Origin: Sulfobacillus acidophilus DSM 10332
GTDB taxonomy: Bacteria; Bacillota; Sulfobacillia; Sulfobacillales; Sulfobacillaceae
NCBI GenBank assembly: GCA_000237975.1
Contig: CP003179.1
Coordinates: 2,170,001 to 2,234,000 of the forward strand
DNA: 64,000 nt
Direction: 5' to 3'
This document shows, piece after piece, positions 19,503 to 29,075 of this stretch. The notes under the pieces were generated by a model, which was given only the letters and a program-made list of their open reading frames with translations, searched no databases and was not told the origin of the DNA. The position numbers and the translations under genes are program-made. The stretch's first letter is position 1; the number at the start of each line of letters is the position of its first letter.

Positions 19503-20708
19503 TTAGGCCGCGTGCCGCGCGCGGTCGGCCAAGAACCGGGCTTCGTCGTAGCGCTGGCGGCTCTTCCACATGCGGAAGAGAATCCGCAGCCAGACGTTCG
19601 CCAGCGCCCGCAAGGCGGCGTGATGCTCATGGCCCCGGGCTCGGTACTGGTCATAGTACTCGCGGGCCCAGGTACACCGCGATAGGGAGGTGAAGGCGAG
19701 TTGATGCACGGCGGCGCGAAAATGCTTGTCACAGGCCCGGCGCATATGCACCCGTTGGAATTTCCCGCTTTGGTAGAGTACGGGGCTCGTGCCGGCCAAG
19801 GCTTGAACGGCCTCTGCCCGTTCAAACCGGTCCCGATCGGGACCAAACCCGGCCTGGAGACGAGTGGCCAAGGTCACAGCGACTCCCGGTACACTCATCC
19901 AGAGGTCAGCATCCGGGCTCGCCAAAAAAAGCTCGGCGAGGTGCTCGCGCAACGCCCGCTGCTCCGTTTGCACGGCTTGCAGTTGGGCCACCAGCGCCCG
20001 CACCGCCCAGACCTGGGCTCGGCGCTTGCCGGGCGACGCTTCCCAGGCGCGCTGCTGCAGGGCGCTCCAGATCCGGGGCGCCTCCTGCGCCGCCCGGGGA
20101 TAGCGGTGCTGCCGCAGCCAGCTCATGACCTCATTCACCGTCAGGCGGCGCGCGTCTTGCGGATCCGGCCAGTTGGCCAAAAAGGCCAAGGCCACCGGAC
20201 GGCTCATATCGGCAAAGGCCGCCAAGACCTGCGGATAATAGCTCTTCAGGGCGGCGAGGAGTTGATTCGTCAACCGGGTGGCCTGCCGGGTCAGCGCTTC
20301 GTCGATGCGGGTCAACTGGCGCAATTCGACCCAGGCTTCGTCTGCGGGCCGCAAGGGCCGCAGCTGGTCGCGGTCCGTCCAGCCCAACCGCGCCAAAATC
20401 GCCGCATCCAGGCGGTCGGTTTTTGCGCCCGAGGGCTTGCGGCGCGCATCCGACACTTTGGGATTCACCGGATATACCCAAAAGCCCGTCGTGATCAACC
20501 AATCCACCACCAAGCCTTGGGAGGTCTCAATCACGACATGCACATCCGTGCGCACGTGGTGCGCCCAGTCGAGCAGCCGACCTTCCAACAGGTCCAACGC
20601 CTCGCGGGTATGGGCAACTTGCCCGGCCCACAGCGTATGGCCGGGCTGGTCTTGCACGACCACATCGTGATGCCCGTCCGCCCAGTCCCAACCGACAACG
20701 ATTTCCAT
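19503..20708 (-). CDS. IS110-family transposase (apparently intact)
   Basis: Starting at ATG 20708, preceded by AAGGAGG, the product has 401 residues. The N-terminal RuvC-like domain shows the DEDD pattern: Asp in VVGWDWADGHHDV, Glu in HVVIETSQG, and Asp residues in GAKTDRLDAAI. The C-terminal Transposase_20 half has SVPGVAVTLATRLQAGFG, VQALAGTSPVLYQSGKF and the Ser-containing region typical of these recombinases. IS110 enzymes move DNA without terminal inverted repeats and are guided by an IS-encoded RNA. The gene is complete, so this copy may be active; its outer ends are not defined here. An in-frame extension to 20762 lacks a ribosome site. Confidence 0.9.
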   Translation of the reverse strand: MEIVVGWDWADGHHDVVVQDQPGHTLWAGQVAHTREALDLLEGRLLDWAHHVRTDVHVVIETSQGLVVDWLITTGFWVYPVNPKVSDARRKPSGAKTDRLDAAILARLGWTDRDQLRPLRPADEAWVELRQLTRIDEALTRQATRLTNQLLAALKSYYPQVLAAFADMSRPVALAFLANWPDPQDARRLTVNEVMSWLRQHRYPRAAQEAPRIWSALQQRAWEASPGKRRAQVWAVRALVAQLQAVQTEQRALREHLAELFLASPDADLWMSVPGVAVTLATRLQAGFGPDRDRFERAEAVQALAGTSPVLYQSGKFQRVHMRRACDKHFRAAVHQLAFTSLSRCTWAREYYDQYRARGHEHHAALRALANVWLRILFRMWKSRQRYDEARFLADRARHAA

Positions 20709-21001
20709 CGACCGCGCCTCCTTTGTGAGATCTCCCAAGGACGCACCAGCCTTATTTATCACCAGACGTGGCAGAACCCGGATATCGACCGGTCTATGAG
20801 TGGTTCCTTGGGCTACAGATGGTCCCGGAAAGGCGAATCTTTCTTCGGCGATCGCGTCGCAAGGAGGAGAAGCCTTTTCCGGGAATGCTTGTCAGCCATA
20901 CCTCATGATGGGCTAAATACTTCGACGAGATCCAGTGGCTCGTCGTAATCTTTGACCAAGTTATCCACCACTGAGACTAGCAAATAAGGAGGACGTCCCC
21001 C
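20709..21001. ncRNA. Region between divergent IS110 genes with hairpins (guide RNA candidate)
   Basis: In front of the second IS110 gene, TCCCGGAAAGGC 20823-20834 pairs with 20872-20884 (one bulged T), closing a 37-base loop, and CGACGAG 20923-20929 pairs with CTCGTCG 20939-20945. The interval from about 20820 to the ATG at 21002 is close in size to known IS110-group bridge RNAs, which lie upstream of the transposase. AAGGAGGACG before 21002 is the ribosome site. The first IS110 gene starts at the other edge, so the two copies are divergent. RNA identity is inference. Confidence 0.4.
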
Positions 21002-21784
21002 ATGACACAATTTATGGAGTTGGATTTGCATAAAAATTATATTCATGGCTATGTCTTTCAACCCGGCCAAAAAGGGACGCATTTCCGGTTTTCCAACACG
21101 CCCGACGAGTGGGCCCGGTTTCTCGCCACGCGGCTCACCCCGGAGACCGCCGTGGCGATCGAAGCGACCGGCAATGCATTCACGATCGATGATCGCCTGA
21201 TCAACCACGCGGGTCAAGTGGTCGTCATTCATCCGGCCGGCCTCACAGGGCTGGGCGCCGGGCGGCACACGGACCGGATTGACGCCGAACGGCTGGCGCA
21301 ACTGCTGGCGCTCGGGACGTACACCCGAGTCCAGGTGTGGGTGCCGCCCACGAAGGTTCGTGCCATTCGGGCGTTGATTACCCAAGCCCGGGCCTGTCAG
21401 CAGCAGGAGACCGCGTGGCGGAACCGGGCGCGGAATCTTTTGATCCGGGCAGGTTACGCGGTTCCGCGGTCGGTGGCCTTGCGGGACTGGCTGGCGGCCC
21501 ATGCGACGGAACTCGACGAGACGCTGCAAATGATTTTCACGAGTGCACTGACGATGGCCGAGCAGGCCCACCAGGAAGGCGAGCGCTTGCGGGGCGAGAT
21601 TCTGCGGCGCTTGCAGGACCGGCCCGAGATGGCCTGGCTCTGGAGCGTGCCCGGTCTGGGCGCGTGGACCGCGGCCGTGGTGTGGGCCTGGATCGGGGAT
21701 CCGCTGCGCTTTCGGTCCGCCCGCCACTTCGGGCGGTATGCCGGGCTGGTGTCAAGGGCAATTGAAATTCCCCAGAAAAGATAA
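21002..21784 (+). pseudogene. IS110-family transposase, C-terminally truncated
   Basis: A second, unrelated-subgroup IS110 transposase begins MTQFMELDLHKNYIHGYVF and shows the Glu of AVAIEATGNAF, Asp residues of HTDRIDAERLA, and the Transposase_20 motif WSVPGLGAWTAAVVWAWIG. The coding sense stops at GRYAGLV (about 21750), where homologues continue with a conserved Ser-Gly-rich active region. From 21750 the frame runs into a foreign IS end (TGTCAAGGG...) and terminates at 21784 after about ten spurious residues. The missing C-terminal part is not in the window. It would be inactive. Confidence 0.85.
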
Positions 21785-21839
21785 TTTGAAAATCCCCAAA
21801 AACGACACCTGAAAATCCCCCATAACGCCAGCTGAATTT
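21750..21839 (+). mobile_element. Left end of an IS21-like element (remnant)
   Basis: The break in the IS110 gene begins TGTCAAGGGCAATTG and carries regularly spaced repeats of TGAAAATCCCC or close variants at 21763, 21787 and 21810, with a fourth (TGAATTT) at 21833 cut by the ISL3 end at 21840. Spacing is 23-24 bp. IS21-family ends start with TGT and carry such tandem transposase-binding repeats. No istA or istB gene remains, so only the tip survives. Family is inferred from the end structure. Confidence 0.55.
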
Positions 21840-22019
21840 GGCTCTTGTCCAATTTTGGTGCAACCCATCGGTGATCCCCCTGAGGTTTGGGCCCGATCTG
21901 CAACGAATCGACACGTTCCGACCCTCTTGACACAGTCGAAGCTCCTTCGCCGAAAGACGTCCCACGCCCATGACGCCGCGTCCGGGGGCTCGGGACAAGG
22001 AGCCCTGGTCACCACCCCT

Positions 22020-22646
22020 TCACTGCCCCGCGGTGAGTAACAAACGGGATCGAAGTAAGGCAAAACTGGCCCGACCGTACATTAATCGCATCAGCCGTTT
22101 AATCCGGTAGTTTAGCCCTTCCGTGCGTCCTTGGTTCCACGGCTCCCGAATGGCCGCCCGGACCGCGGCCTCGTCCGCGCGGAGGCCCCGTGCAAAGCGG
22201 GCCAATTCCGGAATGCCGCTGGTTTCCGCGCGGCAGAGCCACGCCGCGAGCGCTCGCTCGCGGTGATGCGTGACCAGTGCCCGGAACTGATGCACCAGGG
22301 TCCAGACGCGGCGCACCTCGGGATCTTGCAGGCGCATCGAGAGCCGCTCCGTCGTCGCCCGGGGCAACGTCGTCCACCGCCGGAGACATGCCATCGCCCA
22401 GCGCCGCGGCCGCCAGGGTGCCGGGCGTCGGGACGGCGAAGGTCGCCGCCGCGTCCCGTGACGGGCGACGAGCCAGCGATACACGGTCGACTGGCTTCCC
22501 GTATAGCCTTGGGTGCGGGCCGCCGCGTCTAGCGCTGTCGGCGTGTGATGTCCCGCGGCCCATGCGGCTTCGAAGACCGCGGCCCACCGGTCCTCTCTTG
22601 GGGGCGGCGTCGACGTTGGGGGGCGGCGGGAGCGGGCGGCGCTGGC
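22020..22646 (-). pseudogene. ISL3-family transposase, C-terminal fragment
   Basis: The minus-strand frame reads WAAVFEAAWAAGHHTPTALD, then STVYRWLVARHG, and ends with the ISL3 signature EPWNQGRTEGLNYRIKRLMR followed by LMYGRASFALLRSRLLL and a stop at 22020. The acidic E-G-L-N residue completes the DDE triad begun in the N-terminal fragment at 27206-28135. From the right-hand junction (22646) the frame expected from the N-terminal piece differs by one base from the one that reads as ISL3 after about 22610; a lost C in a C-run near 22605 would explain this, so the gene may also be frameshifted. Confidence 0.8.
22640..22646. repeat. Target-site duplication CGCTGGC, left copy
   Basis: CGCTGGC at 22640-22646 directly precedes TGTTTCGGCTAAG, and the identical heptamer at 27206-27212 directly follows GCGCCAACA. 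Both lie inside the ISL3 transposase gene, so they mark where the transposon entered. Tn7/Tni-like elements usually make 5-bp duplications, so two of the seven bases may match by chance. Confidence 0.65.
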
Positions 22647-22798
22647 TGTTTCGGCTAAGTTTATTTGGCTTTACTGACTTCAATGGTTTGTGAGGTTTTT
22701 GGTAAATTTAGATGGATTTCTTGGTGGCACCAGAGGAGGTCTCCAGGGAAAATACGAGGGCCTCGGACAGTTGGCACCTGTACCGAGGCCAGTGAAAG

Positions 22799-23452
22799 TT
22801 GCGATCTTTCTTGGCTATCTTATGGCATTTTTGGCCGTCCTTCAAGGCCTATGAGCAGAGTTGGGACGTTGCCTGGCCCACGATTACGTGCCCGAACGGG
22901 CACGGCCCTCTCGCAAAAAACGGGACCTATTGCCGCGATTACGTGGATGCCCAAGGAGCCCATTCGCTACGCGTGCAACGGTATCGCTGCCGGCCCTGCC
23001 AGCAGACGTGGACGCTGTTCCCCACGTTTGCCACCCCGTTTTCGGCGTATGCCCAAGGCGTCGTCTGGGCGGTCGCCATCTGGCATCGGGAACACGGGTG
23101 GTCTTGGCGGCGACGCATTCAAGCGTGGTGCACGGCCCATCATGTTCCCGTCCATATTCGCACGTTGCAACGCTGGGCGCGACAGTGGAGCCGACGCATG
23201 ACGGCCTGTTTGCAACAATTGATGGTCTGGATTGCGGACAACGGCTATCGGGAGCAGGTGGATGTCTGGGGGCGGGTGGACACGGATACGGCGTTTCAGG
23301 CATGGCGACAGTTGTGGCGCGGCCTGCAGCAGCGTATGGCCGCGTGGCGGAGGGGATCCCTTTGGGTGGGACCGACGCTCTTGGGTTTAGGCTGTCACAC
23401 GGAATGCCGAATGGCACGGGGACCAACGGCTGGGGTAGGGTCAGGTGATTGA
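22799..23452 (+). CDS. Zinc-finger protein of the Tn7/Tni-like element (DUF6431-like)
   Basis: The 217-residue product has a treble-clef-like metal site: ITCPNGHGPLAKNGTY followed by RYRCRPCQQTWTLFP, as in DNA-binding domains that sit next to transposases. A helical basic region (HREHGWSWRRRIQAWCTAHH, RTLQRWARQWSRRM) follows. It is the first gene of the transposon, 31 bases before the DDE transposase, and homologous small genes accompany ExeA-type ATPase transposons. The frame opens at TTG 22799 with no clear ribosome site, so the true start is uncertain. Role: probably DNA binding in transposition; assignment to DUF6431 is from memory of the motif. Confidence 0.65.
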   Translation: MRSFLAILWHFWPSFKAYEQSWDVAWPTITCPNGHGPLAKNGTYCRDYVDAQGAHSLRVQRYRCRPCQQTWTLFPTFATPFSAYAQGVVWAVAIWHREHGWSWRRRIQAWCTAHHVPVHIRTLQRWARQWSRRMTACLQQLMVWIADNGYREQVDVWGRVDTDTAFQAWRQLWRGLQQRMAAWRRGSLWVGPTLLGLGCHTECRMARGPTAGVGSGD

Positions 23453-24066
23453 CCATTTCTGCCATGAGGAGGCTGATGACCCATGTTGTCATCTCGGACG
23501 ACACCCGAACTAATTGCGGCGTTTCGTTACCATGTCATTGCTCCGTTAGTGAGTCGACCGCTCTCGTATGGCGAGCAGCGTGCGCTCATTCAGACCCTCT
23601 GCCAGCAAATCTGGCAGGCGCCCGATGGCGAGCCGGTAACCCTGAGTCCGCGCACGATTTATCGGTGGTTGGCGGCGTATCGTGCCGGCGGTTGGGCGGC
23701 CTTAGCGCCCGCGCCGCGGGCGGATGTAGGCACCATGCGCCATCTTGATCCGGAAATCTTAGCTCTCGCTATCCAACTCCGTGACGAAAATCCCACCCGG
23801 TCTGTCCAACAGATTATTCGGGTGATGGAGTTGGCCCACCGGATTGAGCCGGGATCGGTGAAATATAGCACGCTTACGTACCACTTTCGTCGGCGGGGTG
23901 TTTTGGCAAAACAAGCGCCCGATCCGGAGCACGTTCTCCGGCGCCGCCAAGCCCCGTATGCGAATGCGGAATGGCAAGGTGACACCCAGTATACGGTCCG
24001 TCTTCCGGATCCAGCCCGACCGGGCCGGACCAAACAAGCCTATCTCTTTGCATTCATCGACGATTA

Positions 24067-24071
24067 CAGTC
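24067..24071. repeat. Target-site duplication CAGTC, left copy of IS3 insertion
   Basis: CAGTC at 24067-24071 is repeated at 25439-25443 across the IS3-family element. Removing one copy and the element restores the reading frame Asp-Tyr-Ser-Arg-Phe of the host transposase, which supports these as the duplication. Confidence 0.75.
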
Positions 24072-24143
24072 TTTTTAGCCCCTTAAGAAAGCATGACAAA
24101 AGCGATCTCTCTTGATACCGTAAAAACAGGTAAAGGAGAGGCT

Positions 24144-24422
24144 ATGATTCCGATGAGTCAAACCTATGCACCCGAATTTAAACAGCAAGTGGTACGCGAA
24201 GTACGAGAAACCGGTAATGCGGCCCTGGTAGCCCGGCAACATCAGCTGAACCCCTCCATGGTGCGCCGCTGGGTCCGGGAAGCCTTAACCGCAGAATATC
24301 CGGATCCGCAAGCCTTGTCGTTAGCCGAAGAAAACGTGCGCCTAAAGCGGCTGTTAGCGGAGCGCGACCTTCAAATTGCGATGCTCCAGGATTTTCTCCG
24401 CAAAAAGGGGATGCGGTGGTGA
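24144..24422 (+). CDS. IS3-family OrfA (helix-turn-helix protein)
   Basis: From ATG 24144, after AAAGGAGAGG, 92 residues. YAPEFKQQVVREVRETGNAA and the following LNPSMVRRWVRE form the HTH_Tnp_1 DNA-binding region, then a leucine-zipper-like helix (SLAEENVRLKRLLAERDLQI) that binds OrfB. OrfA recognises the IS ends. GCAAAAAGGGG just before the stop is a possible -1 slippage site, because orfB lies in the -1 frame; a fused OrfAB transposase would result. Confidence 0.85.
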   Translation: MIPMSQTYAPEFKQQVVREVRETGNAALVARQHQLNPSMVRRWVREALTAEYPDPQALSLAEENVRLKRLLAERDLQIAMLQDFLRKKGMRW

Positions 24423-25372
24423 CAGAATTATGTGAACAGGTGCATGCATGGGCTGAGGCGTACCCCCAGGTGCCCCTGCAAGTCTGGTGTGCGACCGTGC
24501 ATCTCCCGCGCGGGAGTTATTATGCCTGGCGCCGGCGGCAGCTCAACCCGTCCGAAGACCGACGGCGCGCGGCCGTCGGCCGCGCCCCTGTGGGCTATAG
24601 CACCACCCAAACCGGGCATGCGGTGTCCGACGACCAAATCATGGCGTGGATTCTGGCCATTTTGGAGCAGGAAAATCCCTGGTATGGCTATCGGAAAGTC
24701 ACGGCGGTCTTACGCCAACAGTATGGGTTGATCATCAATCCGAAAAAGGTCTATCGGCTGATGAAGGCTTGGCACTTGCTCTGGCCCGATCGCCCCCCGA
24801 AATCGCGCTATCCGCGCAAATTGGCCCGGAATTGGGTCATCACGCGACCGAACCAGCTGTGGCAAACGGACATCACCTACGGATATATTGCGGGCGAAGA
24901 CCGTTTTTTCTACGTCCAAGCGATTTTAGATGTCTGTGACCGGAGTATCGTGGCCTATCACATTGGGCTGACCTGCCGGGCGGCGGACGCCGCCCAGACG
25001 CTTCAACGAGCCGTCCAGGCCCGCCAGACCGAATGGGGTCCGGAACCGCCCGTGATTCGCACCGATAATGGCCCTCAATTTACGGCTCACGTGTTCGAAG
25101 CCCAGTGTCAAGCCTTCGGCTTGACCCACGAACGGATTCCCGTGGCGACGCCGAACGCCAACGCCTATATTGAGGCCTGGCATGCCCTGTTAGACCGCGA
25201 ATGTCTGAGTCAGGAATTTGCGACCTATGCCGAAGCCTACGCGGCGGTCACCCGGTGGATTGCGTTTTATAACCAGCGCCGCCTGCACGGAGCCTTAGGG
25301 TATCGGTCTCCTGCCCAAATGCGGCACGCCGTGGCGAACGGCCAAGCACAGTGGACCCCGTTGTGTGCGTAA
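24416..25372 (+). CDS. IS3-family OrfB transposase (DDE catalytic subunit)
   Basis: The 318-residue product carries an HTH_21 region (NPWYGYRKVTAVLRQQYGLI) and a complete rve domain: Asp in LWQTDITYGYI, Asp in IRTDNGPQFTAHVF and Glu in NANAYIEAWHALLDRE, with the usual C-terminal YNQRRLHGALGYRSPAQ. It starts at GTG 24416 or 24419, overlapping the orfA stop; synthesis may be by restart or by -1 frameshift. The gene is intact. Confidence 0.9.
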   Translation: MVTELCEQVHAWAEAYPQVPLQVWCATVHLPRGSYYAWRRRQLNPSEDRRRAAVGRAPVGYSTTQTGHAVSDDQIMAWILAILEQENPWYGYRKVTAVLRQQYGLIINPKKVYRLMKAWHLLWPDRPPKSRYPRKLARNWVITRPNQLWQTDITYGYIAGEDRFFYVQAILDVCDRSIVAYHIGLTCRAADAAQTLQRAVQARQTEWGPEPPVIRTDNGPQFTAHVFEAQCQAFGLTHERIPVATPNANAYIEAWHALLDRECLSQEFATYAEAYAAVTRWIAFYNQRRLHGALGYRSPAQMRHAVANGQAQWTPLCA

Positions 25373-25438
25373 TCGCCCCAAAATGGGAGCGAATGCCCTA
25401 GAGAGAACGCTCGTGTCAAAAAAACGGGGGCCAAACCG

Positions 25439-25443
25439 CAGTC
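25439..25443. repeat. Target-site duplication CAGTC, right copy of IS3 insertion
   Basis: Second copy of the pentamer at 24067-24071; from here the host transposase frame resumes with Arg-Phe-Ile-Val. Confidence 0.75.
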
Positions 25444-26265
25444 GCTTTATTGTGGGAGCGCAGTTCTTTTTTGAAGAGAACCGCCCTCGTCTCGAAGAGG
25501 TGCTCAAGTGGGCGATTGTGCGGCACGGCGTACCCGAAATTTTGCATTGCGACAACGGCGCGGTGTACTCTTCGCACTATCTCCAACGGGTCTGTGGCGA
25601 ACTAGCCATTGACCTACGCCATGGACGCCCGAGACATCCCAGCGGGAAAGGAAAAATTGAACGCTGGTTTCGCCGAGTCGATCAACAGTTCACGGGGGAA
25701 GTGGAAACGCTGATCGCCGACGGACGCGTGCAAACGCTCGAGCAGCTCAACGCTCTCCTGGAGGCGTGGTTAGCTGTGGGATATCACGATGCGCCGCATA
25801 AGCGTTTGGCTGGGGCGACGCCCCGGCAGGTCTGGACGGCGAGCCGCCAAGATCATCCACCGCGTACCCAACCCGTGGAAACATTGCGGCGCATCTTCTT
25901 GTGGCAGGACACTCGCCGGGTGGACAAAACGGGGGTCATTCAGTTGGCCGGCAATCGATACGAGGTGGATGCCCGGCTGGCGCGCAAAACTATCACGGTG
26001 CGATATGATCCGTACGATCTCACCGTAATCCACTGCGAGTATCAGGGCCAGGTCTATCCCGATGCGACGCCGCTCGTCTTACACCATCATCGCCACCGCG
26101 AGGTGCCCAATCCGGAATCCCCACCGGCTGCGCCGGCAACCGGCTTAAATTATCTCACCCTGGCTCAGGAACAACAGGCTACGCGTGCCCAAGCACAGCA
26201 AGCCCGCATTCGCTATGCCACCCAATCCCTCAATTCTGCGCATCCGAAGGAGGACCCCCCGCTAC

Positions 26266-27072
26266 ATGCTTAGAGGCTATTTTGGCTTTACCCGCGAGCC
26301 GTTCAGCAAAGAGCTCGATCCCACGGAATACTTTCCGCACAACGGATTTCAGGAATTACACGCTCGGCTCACCATCATGGTCGAAACCCGTGCCTGAGGG
26401 CTCGTGACCGGGGACATTGGATCGGGGAAATCGAGCGCCGTCCGGCGGCTAGCCGCCGGCTTAGATCCCCATCGCCACCCCGTAGTCTACTGCGCCGAGT
26501 CTCAATTGACGCCATTCGATTTTTATTCCTTGGTACTGGAGGCTTTCGGCATGACGCCACGCTTTCAGCGATCCCAGGCGCGGCGTCAATTCTTGACGCT
26601 TATGACCGATCTGTTTGACCAACAGCATAAAGTACCGGTCCTCATTATTGACGAGGCTCAAAATCTTCCCGCCACCATGCTCCAAGAACTCCGGTTCATC
26701 ACCAATACCCAAATGGACGCCGTCACGCCCTTTGCGTGCATCTTGGTGGGACAACCCGACTTGCGAGCCCAGCTACGACTACGATACTTTGAACCGATTC
26801 AACAACGCATCGCCTTGCGCTACCATTTAGGCGGCCTGTCCGAGTCGGAAACGCAGGCCTATGTCGCACATCATTGTAAGCTTGCAGGCGCGACCCATCC
26901 GTTGATGGCGCCCTCAGCCTTGAGTCTACTCTATACCACCACCCACGGCATCCCGCGGCTCATCAACCTGTTCGCCGTCCAAGCACTCTGGGCTGCAGCG
27001 GCGGCCCATGCGGACATCGTTGATGAGGCACACATGCAACAGGCCATTGCCGACTGGCGCGACGGCAGTTGA
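26266..27072 (+). pseudogene. ExeA/TniB-like AAA ATPase of the transposon, with an in-frame TGA
   Basis: ATG 26266 follows GAAGGAGGA and overlaps the transposase stop. The first 43 codons (GYFGFTREPFSKELDPTEYF...) match ExeA/TniB N-termini, then TGA at 26395-26397 interrupts. The same frame continues with GLVTGDIGSGKSSAVRRLAA (Walker A), VLIIDEAQNLPATMLQELRF (Walker B) and a sensor/arginine region to TGA at 27072. Such ATPases choose the target and activate the DDE transposase. A GTG at 26404 could restart translation just before Walker A, giving 222 residues lacking the N-terminal transposase-contact part, so loss of function is likely but not certain. Confidence 0.8.
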
Positions 27073-27086
27073 CTCACCCATACGTT

Positions 27087-27125
27087 CACAAGACCTCCTC
27101 TCGGGAACCGGCAGGGGGTCTTGTG
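27087..27125 (+). other. Hairpin after the transposon ATPase gene
   Basis: CACAAGACC 27087-27095 pairs with GGTCTTGTG 27117-27125, with extra C-G pairs possible inside. No T-run follows, so it may be a weak terminator or an end-proximal structure of the transposon. Confidence 0.35.
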
Positions 27126-27205
27126 CCAACGGCCTTAGCAAAACTTTCAGGGCTAAACAGCTTGACAGTGAGCGGCAGCGTTGCCAAGAAGCGTTAGCGC
27201 CAACA

Positions 27206-27212
27206 CGCTGGC
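27206..27212. repeat. Target-site duplication CGCTGGC, right copy
   Basis: Identical to 22640-22646 and directly after the right tip (AACA) of the transposon; the ISL3 transposase N-terminal fragment resumes here. Confidence 0.65.
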
Positions 27213-28135
27213 ATCCGGGCATACTTGCGAACGGTGTGTCGGTCGAGATTCAACGCGCGGGCGATCGCCGAGAGGTTGTCGCCCTGGGCCAACCGCGCAT
27301 GAATCGCCGCCCAGCGGGCTTGCGATCGGGAAGGGTTCGGCGTCTCCGTCGGCGCCTCCGGCGCCGCCAGCGGTTCGGAGGGCGGTAGCGGTTCGGGATG
27401 CCGTTGGAAGAACCGTTCCACGGCGTCGGCCAAATTCCGGAACAGATGGAAGCGGTCCGCCACTGGCTGCGCCTGGGGCACCCCCTCGGCAATGGCGTGA
27501 GCAAAAGCCACCGCCCGGTCTCGGGTCACGATCGCCACCGTCGGATGGGCTCGTAACCACGCGGCCACCGTCTCGGCGCGCGTATCCGGCAAAATGTCGA
27601 GGATGGTGCCCCGTTCGTGGTCGACCACAATGGTCGCGTACCGTTGGCCTTTCCGCCGGGCCCATTCATCGAGGCCGATGACCCGTGGCGCGGGCGGATC
27701 GGGCAGGGGCATCGCGAGAATCCATCGGTTGAGGGTTTGGCGACTGACCGGGAAACCCGTCGTCTGCAGCTGCCGAGCGGCGTCGCTCGCCGAGGTCACC
27801 AAAGTCCAGCAGACCATGGCCTGTTGGGCTTGCCGGGTCCACCGTTGATACGGGGCGACACCGGGTAGGCGTTCACAGAAAATCGCTTGCGAACAGGCGG
27901 GGTTCGTACAGACAAAGCGCCGGACCCGGAGGTGCCACTGCACCGCCCAGCCCCTCCACGGAACATCGCGCGGGGTGCGCCAATAATGGCTTTTAACCCA
28001 GGCACTCGGCTGGCCACACCGCGGGCATGCAGCCGTGGGCGCCGTTGTCTCGGCCCCAATGTGAATCGGTGCCTGCTCACCGTTGATGCGGAGAATTCGC
28101 ACCGGGGTATTTTCGAGTATAATAAAACCGGACAT
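27206..28135 (-). pseudogene. ISL3-family transposase, N-terminal and DDE core fragment
   Basis: From ATG 28135 (AAGGATGG upstream) the minus strand encodes about 310 residues of ISL3 transposase. CPRCGQPSAW and FVCTNPACSQAIFCERLP are the N-terminal zinc finger; the catalytic domain has RVIGLDEWARRKGQRYATIV (Asp), VAIVTRDRAVAFAHAI (Asp) and ADRFHLFRNLADAVERFF. It ends with DRHTVRKYARMP, after which the transposon tip supplies a stop at 27194. The C-terminal third, with the Glu, is at 22020-22646. Frames upstream of 28135 are terminal-repeat sequence, not protein. Confidence 0.9.
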
Positions 28136-28200
28136 GAGATCACCATCCTTGCACGGAGTTGTCTCATGTCCATTTTCCATCTTATTCCATAATTCGCCAA

Positions 28201-28222
28201 GCACCAAAATTGGACAAGAGCC
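28201..28222. repeat. ISL3 terminal inverted repeat, right copy
   Basis: Exact reverse complement of 21840-21861 over 22 bases. It marks the transposase-proximal end of the split ISL3 element. Confidence 0.85.
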
Positions 28223-29075
28223 ATTTCCTCTTGACCAAATACACGTGCAGATGAGTGCCGCGTCGATCGACCGCTTTCTCGCCGCCGAACGGCGGCGGTT
28301 GGAGGTCAAAGGGCGCAACGGCACCAAGCCCGGCACCCCCCTCAAACAGCAAATCCCGGTCCGGATGTGGGCGGAATGGGATGATGCGACCCATCCCGGA
28401 TTTCTCGAAATCGATCTCGTCTCCCACGATGGCGGCGCAGCCCGTGGCGAATTTGCCTGGACCCTGGATTTGGTCGACATCTTAACCGGGTGGACGGAAA
28501 CCGTGGCCTTGCCGAATAAAGCCCGAAAATGGGTGATCGAGGCCTTGGATACCCAGCTCGCGCGCTTTCCCTTCCCGATTCGCGGGATCGACTCGGATAA
28601 CGGGAGCGAATTCATCAACCACCATCTTCTGACTTGGTGCGATAGCCACCCGATCACGTTTACCCGGGCCCGAGCCTATCACAAAAACGACGGCTGTTAT
28701 GTGGAGCAAAAAAACTGGTCGGTGGTGCGGCGCTTCGTCGGTTATCTACGCTATGAGGGGGCCGAACAGGTGCAATGGCTGAACGACCTCTATGCCACCC
28801 TCCGCCTCTATACCCATTTCTTTCAGCCGTTACAAAAGGCCGTGGCCAAAGAGCGTCGGGGAGCCCGCACCTACCGCCGCTATGATCAGGCTCAAACTCC
28901 CTACCAACGGGTCCTGGCGCTGCCGGATACGGTTGTGTCTCCGGCACAGAAAGCGGTCTTAACGGCGCAGTACGCTTCGCTCAATCCCGCCGCGATTCGA
29001 CGCGATTTGCTACGGCTCCAAAACCGGTTGTGGGACCCCATGCCCCGCGAAACCCCGCACGAGTTCCCTCTATGA
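28223..29075 (+). pseudogene. Integrase-type transposase fragment (IS481/ISNCY-like), N-terminus lost
   Basis: The frame is open from the ISL3 tip and gives about 280 residues ending at 29075. HPGFLEIDLVSHDGG holds the first catalytic Asp, RGIDSDNGSEFINHHL the second, and YHKNDGCYVEQKNWSVVRRF the Glu: a complete rve core. The DNA-binding N-terminal region (about 150 residues in homologues) is missing because the ISL3 element abuts it. An ATG at about 28251 could start a short product, but without the helix-turn-helix it should not work. Confidence 0.8.

Follow-up and report, generated by a model that had tools for sequence, protein, structure and literature searches.

The transposon at the locus

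The window analysed here is a 64,000-nucleotide stretch of the Sulfobacillus acidophilus DSM 10332 genome (contig CP003179.1, positions 2,170,001 to 2,234,000, forward strand), and our subject is a compact transposon within it. The element carries genes for a DUF6431 zinc-finger protein, a DDE transposase and an AAA+ ATPase (Table 1). An earlier note, made from the letters alone, had given the three genes in this order, which stands, and had overlooked both an IS3-family element nested in the transposase gene and a TGA codon in the ATPase frame. It had also described TGT...ACA ends and a 7-bp direct repeat, and these were borne out: the termini lie at 22647 and 27205, with CGCTGGC flanking them on both sides. 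Among 17,777 TGT/ACA pairs lying 2.5-5 kb apart in the window, only two had a repeat of 6 bp or longer together with end bases that agreed at 9 or more of 16 positions; the present pair was the better of them and the other was weaker. The target is an ISL3-family transposon (NF033550, 219 bits; cut-off 180), and another copy of it in the host genome lacks the element. When the window flanks were joined via a single CGCTGGC, they matched the uninterrupted ISL3 copy, with few mismatches and a 2-base gap elsewhere. Because the empty site is reproduced in this way, the boundaries are firm, and the element is a real insertion.

The 4.56 kb first taken as the size of the element is the total span of a transposon of ~3.19 kb and a 1,368-bp IS3-family insertion. 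The latter is bracketed by a 4-bp duplication, CAGT (24067-24070 and 25439-25442), its orfB product scores 219 bits against NF033516 (cut-off 160), and the same element occurs at five further locations in the host genome. It splits the transposase gene, and the ATPase frame reaches its in-frame stop after 43 codons. The window copy is probably a recent insertion and is now inactivated; with its split transposase gene and ATPase stop, movement would need proteins from elsewhere.

Table 1. Features of the transposon and its target duplication, in window positions.
Feature	Position	Strand	Basis
Target duplication CGCTGGC, left copy, 7 bp	22640..22646	.	Direct repeat and empty site
Left end (TGTTTCGGCTAAG...) with predicted RNA hairpin (GGCCTCGG...CCGAGGCC) preceding the first gene	22647..22798	+	Folding energy z only -1.2 in this copy
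Zinc-finger gene, DUF6431 (PF20020), true start uncertain	22799..23452	+	29.8 bits, cut-off 26.6
DDE transposase gene, 5' part (helix-turn-helix and first catalytic Asp)	23483..24070	+	Pfam, alignment
Nested IS3-family element (orfA; orfB 24416-25372), not part of the family core	24071..25438	+	NF033516
DDE transposase gene, 3' part (remaining rve core and Mu_transpos_C)	25439..26273	+	Pfam, alignment
AAA+ ATPase gene (AAA_22), in-frame TGA at 26395-26397	26266..27072	+	Pfam
Stable hairpin 3' of the ATPase gene, possible terminator	27087..27125	+	z -3.1
Right end (...GCGTTAGCGCCAACA)	27126..27205	+	End comparison
Target duplication CGCTGGC, right copy, 7 bp	27206..27212	.	Direct repeat and empty site

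A second host copy (L019:1018-4204; 3,187 bp) lies at a different site with a 6-bp duplication, CTTGGG, and its transposase frame is open (472 amino acids). It differs from the window copy by 1 nucleotide over 3,187 bp, the nested element excluded, and the two have the ATPase nonsense codon in common (L019:3394-3396). Given this shared stop, an intact ATPase may be dispensable for recent movement, or the ATPase came in trans. Either the stop is tolerated, or ATPase is supplied by another element, or the stop has spread by gene conversion. One possible trans source is L092, a divergent relative in the host whose ATPase match extends across nearly the whole length.

Three further members were found in the host. 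In the copy L020, the transposase gene is cut off at the same position by a different element; the IS3 model is the best match for its two open stretches, which as fragments stay below the cut-off. Two copies of the transposon (window 24071; L020:2449) therefore have their transposase genes interrupted at one and the same point, beside GATTACAG, by different IS3-like elements. The other two, L087 and L092, are divergent, and genes are interrupted or split in both.

The surroundings of the window copy (19503-22683 and 27194-29075) form a cluster of mobile elements comprising two IS110 frames, one of which scores under its model cut-off, the split ISL3 element and one weak IS481/IS30-like frame. 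A search of 22600-27300 against Rfam (E up to 0.1) returned no known RNA.

Gene content and distribution of relatives

Relatives were sought with the transposase as seed, so the counts describe this transposase family, and their rows are not independent events. We define the family by a DUF6431 gene, a DDE transposase gene and an AAA_22 ATPase gene, in this order, between TGT...ACA ends; the window and L019 copies both have these. A scan of named genomes gave 351 encoding stretches, and we retained the 80 best. In the resulting table of 115 transposase rows (loci L098-L207), 35 were left out for short flanks. Of the remaining 80, still including duplicates and fragments, 72 had DUF6431 upstream and 76 had the ATPase downstream. 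Removal of fragments and near-identical copies left 54 distinct full-length transposases with enough flank, all followed by the ATPase (54/54) and nearly all directly preceded by DUF6431 (52/54). Both exceptions keep a displaced zinc-finger gene, ~3 kb upstream in L173 and separated by another open frame in L178, as seen in L087. The earlier note had proposed looking for the same genes in other copies, and its view of them as one set holds across these relatives.

Linkage was also assessed from the opposite direction, and the transposase was found in 24 of the 30 best DUF6431 loci (direct profile search, 1.5-kb flanks). Seven plasmid loci, fetched by transposase similarity, came from Bacillota, Actinomycetota and Pseudomonadota (Thermobacillus composti, Streptomyces chartreusis, Mycobacterium intracellulare, Acidithiobacillus caldus, Alicyclobacillus dauci, Cupriavidus necator and Planococcus lenghuensis). 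With profiles built without those loci, all seven showed DUF6431, transposase and ATPase in order. The first gene is called DUF6431 in the NCBI annotation of five of them, and in S. chartreusis a further small gene separates those for the transposase and the ATPase. The idea that the zinc-finger gene is incidental was rejected on the linkage in relatives, the reverse test and the plasmid loci together.

At E<=1e-20, and with at most four candidates scored per genome, the transposase was detected in 87 of 398 genomes of the phylum. Within the host's family, single-sequence searches found the transposase in 21 and the zinc-finger gene in 12 of 34 genomes. Viral contigs scanned with one relative yielded nothing. 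The transposon family is thus common in Bacillota, is found also in other bacteria and is not rare. The earlier suggestion of a little-described minimal family fits the literature searched, in which we recognised no description of a DUF6431-DDE-AAA+ family (most subscription journals, ISfinder and TnCentral lay outside this scope); rarity forms no part of it. The one paper found to name DUF6431 deals, in the text available, with Ruminococcus gnavus and sialic acid (PMC12323340).

Some Sulfobacillus-related members have a fourth gene 3' of the ATPase gene, encoding ~138-162 amino acids (L080:3850-4266, L081:3819-4235, L089:5374-5862). It was matched in 18 of the 34 genomes of the host's family and was not matched in the host. 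By eye the protein had been read as a tyrosine-recombinase core-binding domain; this was unsupported, Pfam giving one weak match (E 0.064) and fold searches nothing. Its structural model was poor, with a mean predicted local distance difference test score (pLDDT) of 64, and no known fold was recovered.

Transposase and ATPase

The transposase contains helix-turn-helix, rve-type and Mu_transpos_C domains (PF09299 above cut-off). Residues D167, D233 and E269 are invariant in 12 of 12 aligned transposases, and their spacing is that of a DD(35)E triad. By profile, the nearest solved structures are ShTnsB (3.8e-19) and then IS5376 IstA (5.2e-14). The ATPase had been called ExeA/TniB-like. Its AAA_22 match is clear at 84 bits, and the TniB Pfam model is just missed in the window (20.7 against a cut-off of 22.4); the ATPase of Tumebacillus avium exceeds that cut-off. 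In profile searches MuB is the best ATPase match (8.2e-6), with VchTnsC (3.1e-4) and ShTnsC (1.7e-3) further down, a weak match overall. Judged by these profiles, the transposase is closest to TnsB and the ATPase is MuB/TnsC-like.

We also searched for the other proteins of Tn7-like elements, using as positive control a plasmid with an annotated Tn7-like element. Pfam TniQ had no match in the host genome, the element included, or in T. avium, and Pfam TnsA had none in the host genome, the element included; the control plasmid was positive for both. Since neither protein was found in the host, nor TniQ in T. avium, this is not a canonical Tn7 element. The genome-wide search of the host, with its positive control, supports the earlier description of a compact Tn7-related module that lacks TnsA and any known selector and has its own zinc-finger gene. 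It seems, at least for T. avium, that TniQ plays no part in the spread of the family. The Bacillus mediterraneensis genome has one TniQ and one TnsA match ~4 kb apart.

Ends, duplications and target choice

In T. avium we found 10 complete copies at 10 different sites, all with TGTTAC...GTAACA ends, as well as a truncated eleventh. Their duplications are 6 bp at nine sites and 5 bp at one. An automated scan of 66 loci, which looked for TGT...ACA only and made a few wrong picks (e.g., L121 and L140), returned 31 in which the duplication measured 5 bp or more and the end bases agreed at 8 or more of 16 positions; the duplication was 6 bp in 21 of these, 5 bp in five and 7 bp in five. After four loci had been dropped (L121, L193, L147 and L154), the merged set held 34 sites, 18 resolved by copy comparison or inspection and 16 by the scan; 10 of the 34 come from one genome. 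The ends of other copies thus agree with the TGT...ACA termini noted earlier, within a scan that looked for these alone. Duplications were 6 bp at 25 sites, 7 bp at six and 5 bp at three. Tn7-like elements usually duplicate 5 bp of target, and the earlier note had set the 7-bp repeat against that figure. The 7 bp is real in the window and lies within the range of the family, in which 6 bp is commonest, so that it is not diagnostic.

Comparison of target sequences, another check proposed earlier, revealed no flanking motif common to the 25 six-bp sites. Inside the duplication there is a weak symmetrical preference, position 2 being T at 15 of the 25 sites and position 5 being A at 12.

In Tumebacillus and Paenibacillus, both ends have subterminal two-box sites (TGNC-N8-14-TGNCC) at positions 31 and 55; Aneurinibacillus has them at three of those four places. 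A generic end-junction pattern gave no excess of matches over its reversed control in the four genomes tried and was uninformative.

At the left ends of two relatives (L080:860-1000 and L081:812-960; fold z -2.6 and -3.2), two hairpins precede the zinc-finger gene, one of them terminator-like with a run of T. These hairpins perhaps guard against read-through from outside.

In B. mediterraneensis (L118:8340-8360), two copies lie head to tail with TGA, 3 bp, between the right end of one and the left end of the next. Such a tandem, right end-3 bp-left end, is the arrangement of IS21 dimers. It hints at similar dimers in this family, from a single case.

The zinc-finger protein

We next considered what DUF6431 might contribute. 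Its AlphaFold model places a zinc ribbon before a helix-turn-helix, names that come from reading the model's elements together with structural matches; mean pLDDT is 70 and the C-terminal part is unreliable. Fold matches were weak. They comprised the N-terminal region of the ISCth4 transposase (Z 4.9, root-mean-square deviation 6.3, 102 residues), the IstA helix-turn-helix (Z 4.7, deviation 3.3, 52 residues) and NrdR (Z 4.2, deviation 2.5, 44 residues), and they may reflect common arrangements only. TniQ was not listed in these searches, the best Z being 4.9, which does not exclude a likeness to it. Sequence profiles returned mainly general zinc fingers and no convincing TniQ match.

The ratio of nonsynonymous to synonymous substitution rates (dN/dS) was 0.13-0.22 for DUF6431 (four pairs), 0.04-0.10 for the transposase (five pairs) and 0.02-0.06 for the ATPase (four pairs). 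DUF6431 is therefore under purifying selection, and for this reason it is most likely a working part of the element. Given its near-constant linkage, it is a good candidate for an undescribed transposition helper.

Two roles may be considered. As an end-binding cofactor or an expression regulator (a repressor), DUF6431 would have nothing to do with targets. Its gene comes first and adjoins the left end, hairpins precede it, a zinc ribbon with a helix-turn-helix is a common DNA-binding layout, and the weak fold matches (all Z below 5) include transposase N-terminal regions and NrdR. Nothing speaks directly against such a role, the one reservation being that the transposase has helix-turn-helix domains of its own; we hold it to be a serious possibility, somewhat short of an even chance. 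Alternatively, DUF6431 could be a target selector replacing TniQ/TnsD, which would bind DNA by its zinc ribbon and helix-turn-helix and load the ATPase there. This agrees with the structural model and with the constant linkage to a MuB/TnsC-like ATPase in the absence of TniQ, and a dN/dS above that of the other two genes might suit a variable contact. A targeting role is plausible on this sequence evidence, but the 25 six-bp sites share no flanking sequence and show a weak preference only inside the duplication, and neither fold nor profile gave a convincing match to TniQ. The position of the gene does not help either. The earlier note had placed it where a targeting protein would be, a weak point, as the control Tn7-like element has TnsA first and TniQ behind the ATPase gene, so that the first place in the operon is not that of TniQ. 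We regard the selector role as possible but less likely than not.

Relation to known transposons

Tn7-like elements share with this family a TnsB-like DDE transposase, a TnsC-like AAA+ ATPase and TGT...ACA ends (PMC10293859, PMC8649781). The ends of Tn7, Tn5053 and Tn552 carry site arrays (PMC8649781), and some DUF6431-family members may likewise have subterminal site repeats. The family differs in lacking TnsA and TniQ/TnsD, in a duplication of 6 bp (5-7; 7 bp in the window) and in having a DUF6431 gene instead of a selector; the copies examined hold no cargo, and no fixed attachment site was seen. TnsA is not universal among Tn7-like elements, at 92% in one clade and 28% in another (PMC8649781). 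In the Tn7 branch covered by a survey of target selectors, TniQ/TnsD is ubiquitous, and TnsF, a zinc-finger protein with tyrosine-recombinase-like domains, is predicted to act with TniQ; the sections of that survey available contain nothing like DUF6431 (PMC10293859).

An ordinary Tn552/Tn5053-type element would account for the equal sizes of transposase and ATPase and for their general domains, and such elements, like the Tn5053-Tn402 group, have a DDE transposase of similar size and an AAA+ helper and lack TnsA. Tn552 duplications of 6-7 bp also fit, and tblastn searches started from the family extend to staphylococcal plasmids, with 22-25% identity. We compared four loci (Staphylococcus equorum, Sphingomonas, Dinoroseobacter and Clavibacter) that we take to be of the Tn552/Tn5053-Tn402 kind from their gene order. 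All four have a recombinase/resolvase gene and none has DUF6431 by the profile that found all seven plasmid members, whereas no resolvase domain was found in frames of at least 130 amino acids in the 3,187-bp copy. In a tree of 26 transposases, the Tn552-like loci stand apart from the DUF6431 family (support 100/99 with a TnsB row, 95/91 alone), and they also group together in the ATPase tree (97/95). We consider this reading improbable.

The family could instead be a variant of IS21 (IstA/IstB), with which it shares compactness and a two-gene core of transposase and AAA+ helper. IS21 ends are multi-repeat with two conserved boxes per repeat (PMC10122671), and the two-box ends described above resemble them. 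The IS21 model does match two family transposases, at 42 and 60 bits, and the B. mediterraneensis tandem, with 3 bp between ends, is of IS21 type. These scores are nevertheless far under the 160-bit cut-off, the helper is AAA_22/ExeA-like with IstB absent among its domain matches, DUF6431 is an additional third gene, and the tandem was seen once. On balance, an IS21 variant is unlikely. No NCBIfam transposase model reached its cut-off for the two family proteins tested, the closest being IS481 (NF033577), for which they score 181 and 177 bits where 224 are required. An IS481 element has one gene, as opposed to the three of this family.

Interpretation

Taken together, we think it probable that the element is an insertion-sequence-like transposon of ~3.2 kb from the TnsB/IstA-MuB world, with mobility genes only and with DUF6431 as its own DNA-binding accessory protein. 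The observations behind this are the ends, the duplication, the empty site, the gene content of relatives, the conserved triad, the diverse targets and the two near-identical copies.

Several points weigh against it. Of 114 DUF6431 matches above the Pfam cut-off, only 62 are followed within 1.3 kb by a transposase from the phylum-wide search, which scored at most four candidates per genome; the unpaired rows include members split by insertions, such as the window copy. A single weak TnsA-like match (E 1.1e-5) occurs in T. avium, and the near-identical host copies both have the ATPase stop. Cdc6 and NtrC proteins rank between MuB and TnsC in the ATPase search, so that the MuB/TnsC signal is partly a general AAA+ one. 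The transposase tree does not resolve its deeper branching, with TnsB, IstA, IS481 and IS3 rows as long branches, and the ATPase tree puts the Cupriavidus row of the family on the Tn552-like side, with weak support. The two-box pattern was picked after some ends had been viewed, repeats within ends score no higher than the best shuffles, and L019 and L080, on the branch of the window copy, lack the pattern.

By analogy with the TnsB, IstA and MuA families, the transposase of such a transposon would pair both ends, cleave 3' at the terminal CA and join the ends to staggered target phosphates, usually ~6 bp apart. The ATPase, assembled on target DNA, would mark the joining site. DUF6431 would act as a dedicated DNA-binding partner in end binding, in target or ATPase recruitment, or in regulation. 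Because no TnsA-like second-strand nuclease and no resolvase were found in the element, the route is probably 3'-end cleavage with replication or an IS21-like tandem route, a speculative point.

A bolder possibility is that DUF6431 represents a new licensing or target-selection class that arose independently of TniQ and works with a TnsB/MuB-like core. It would then define a large transposon family in its own right, with members in Bacillota, Actinomycetota and Pseudomonadota; in some Sulfobacillus-related members the fourth small protein would join it. We view this as doubtful.

AAA+-assisted DDE transposons have been studied mainly via Mu, IS21, Tn7 and CRISPR-associated transposons, and there TniQ links the target to the ATPase. 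A compact, widespread family with a different zinc-binding protein where others have TniQ could reveal a second mode of control of such a machine. It would also supply a role for a Pfam domain that so far has none assigned, in elements that, at 3 kb, are small enough for direct laboratory testing.

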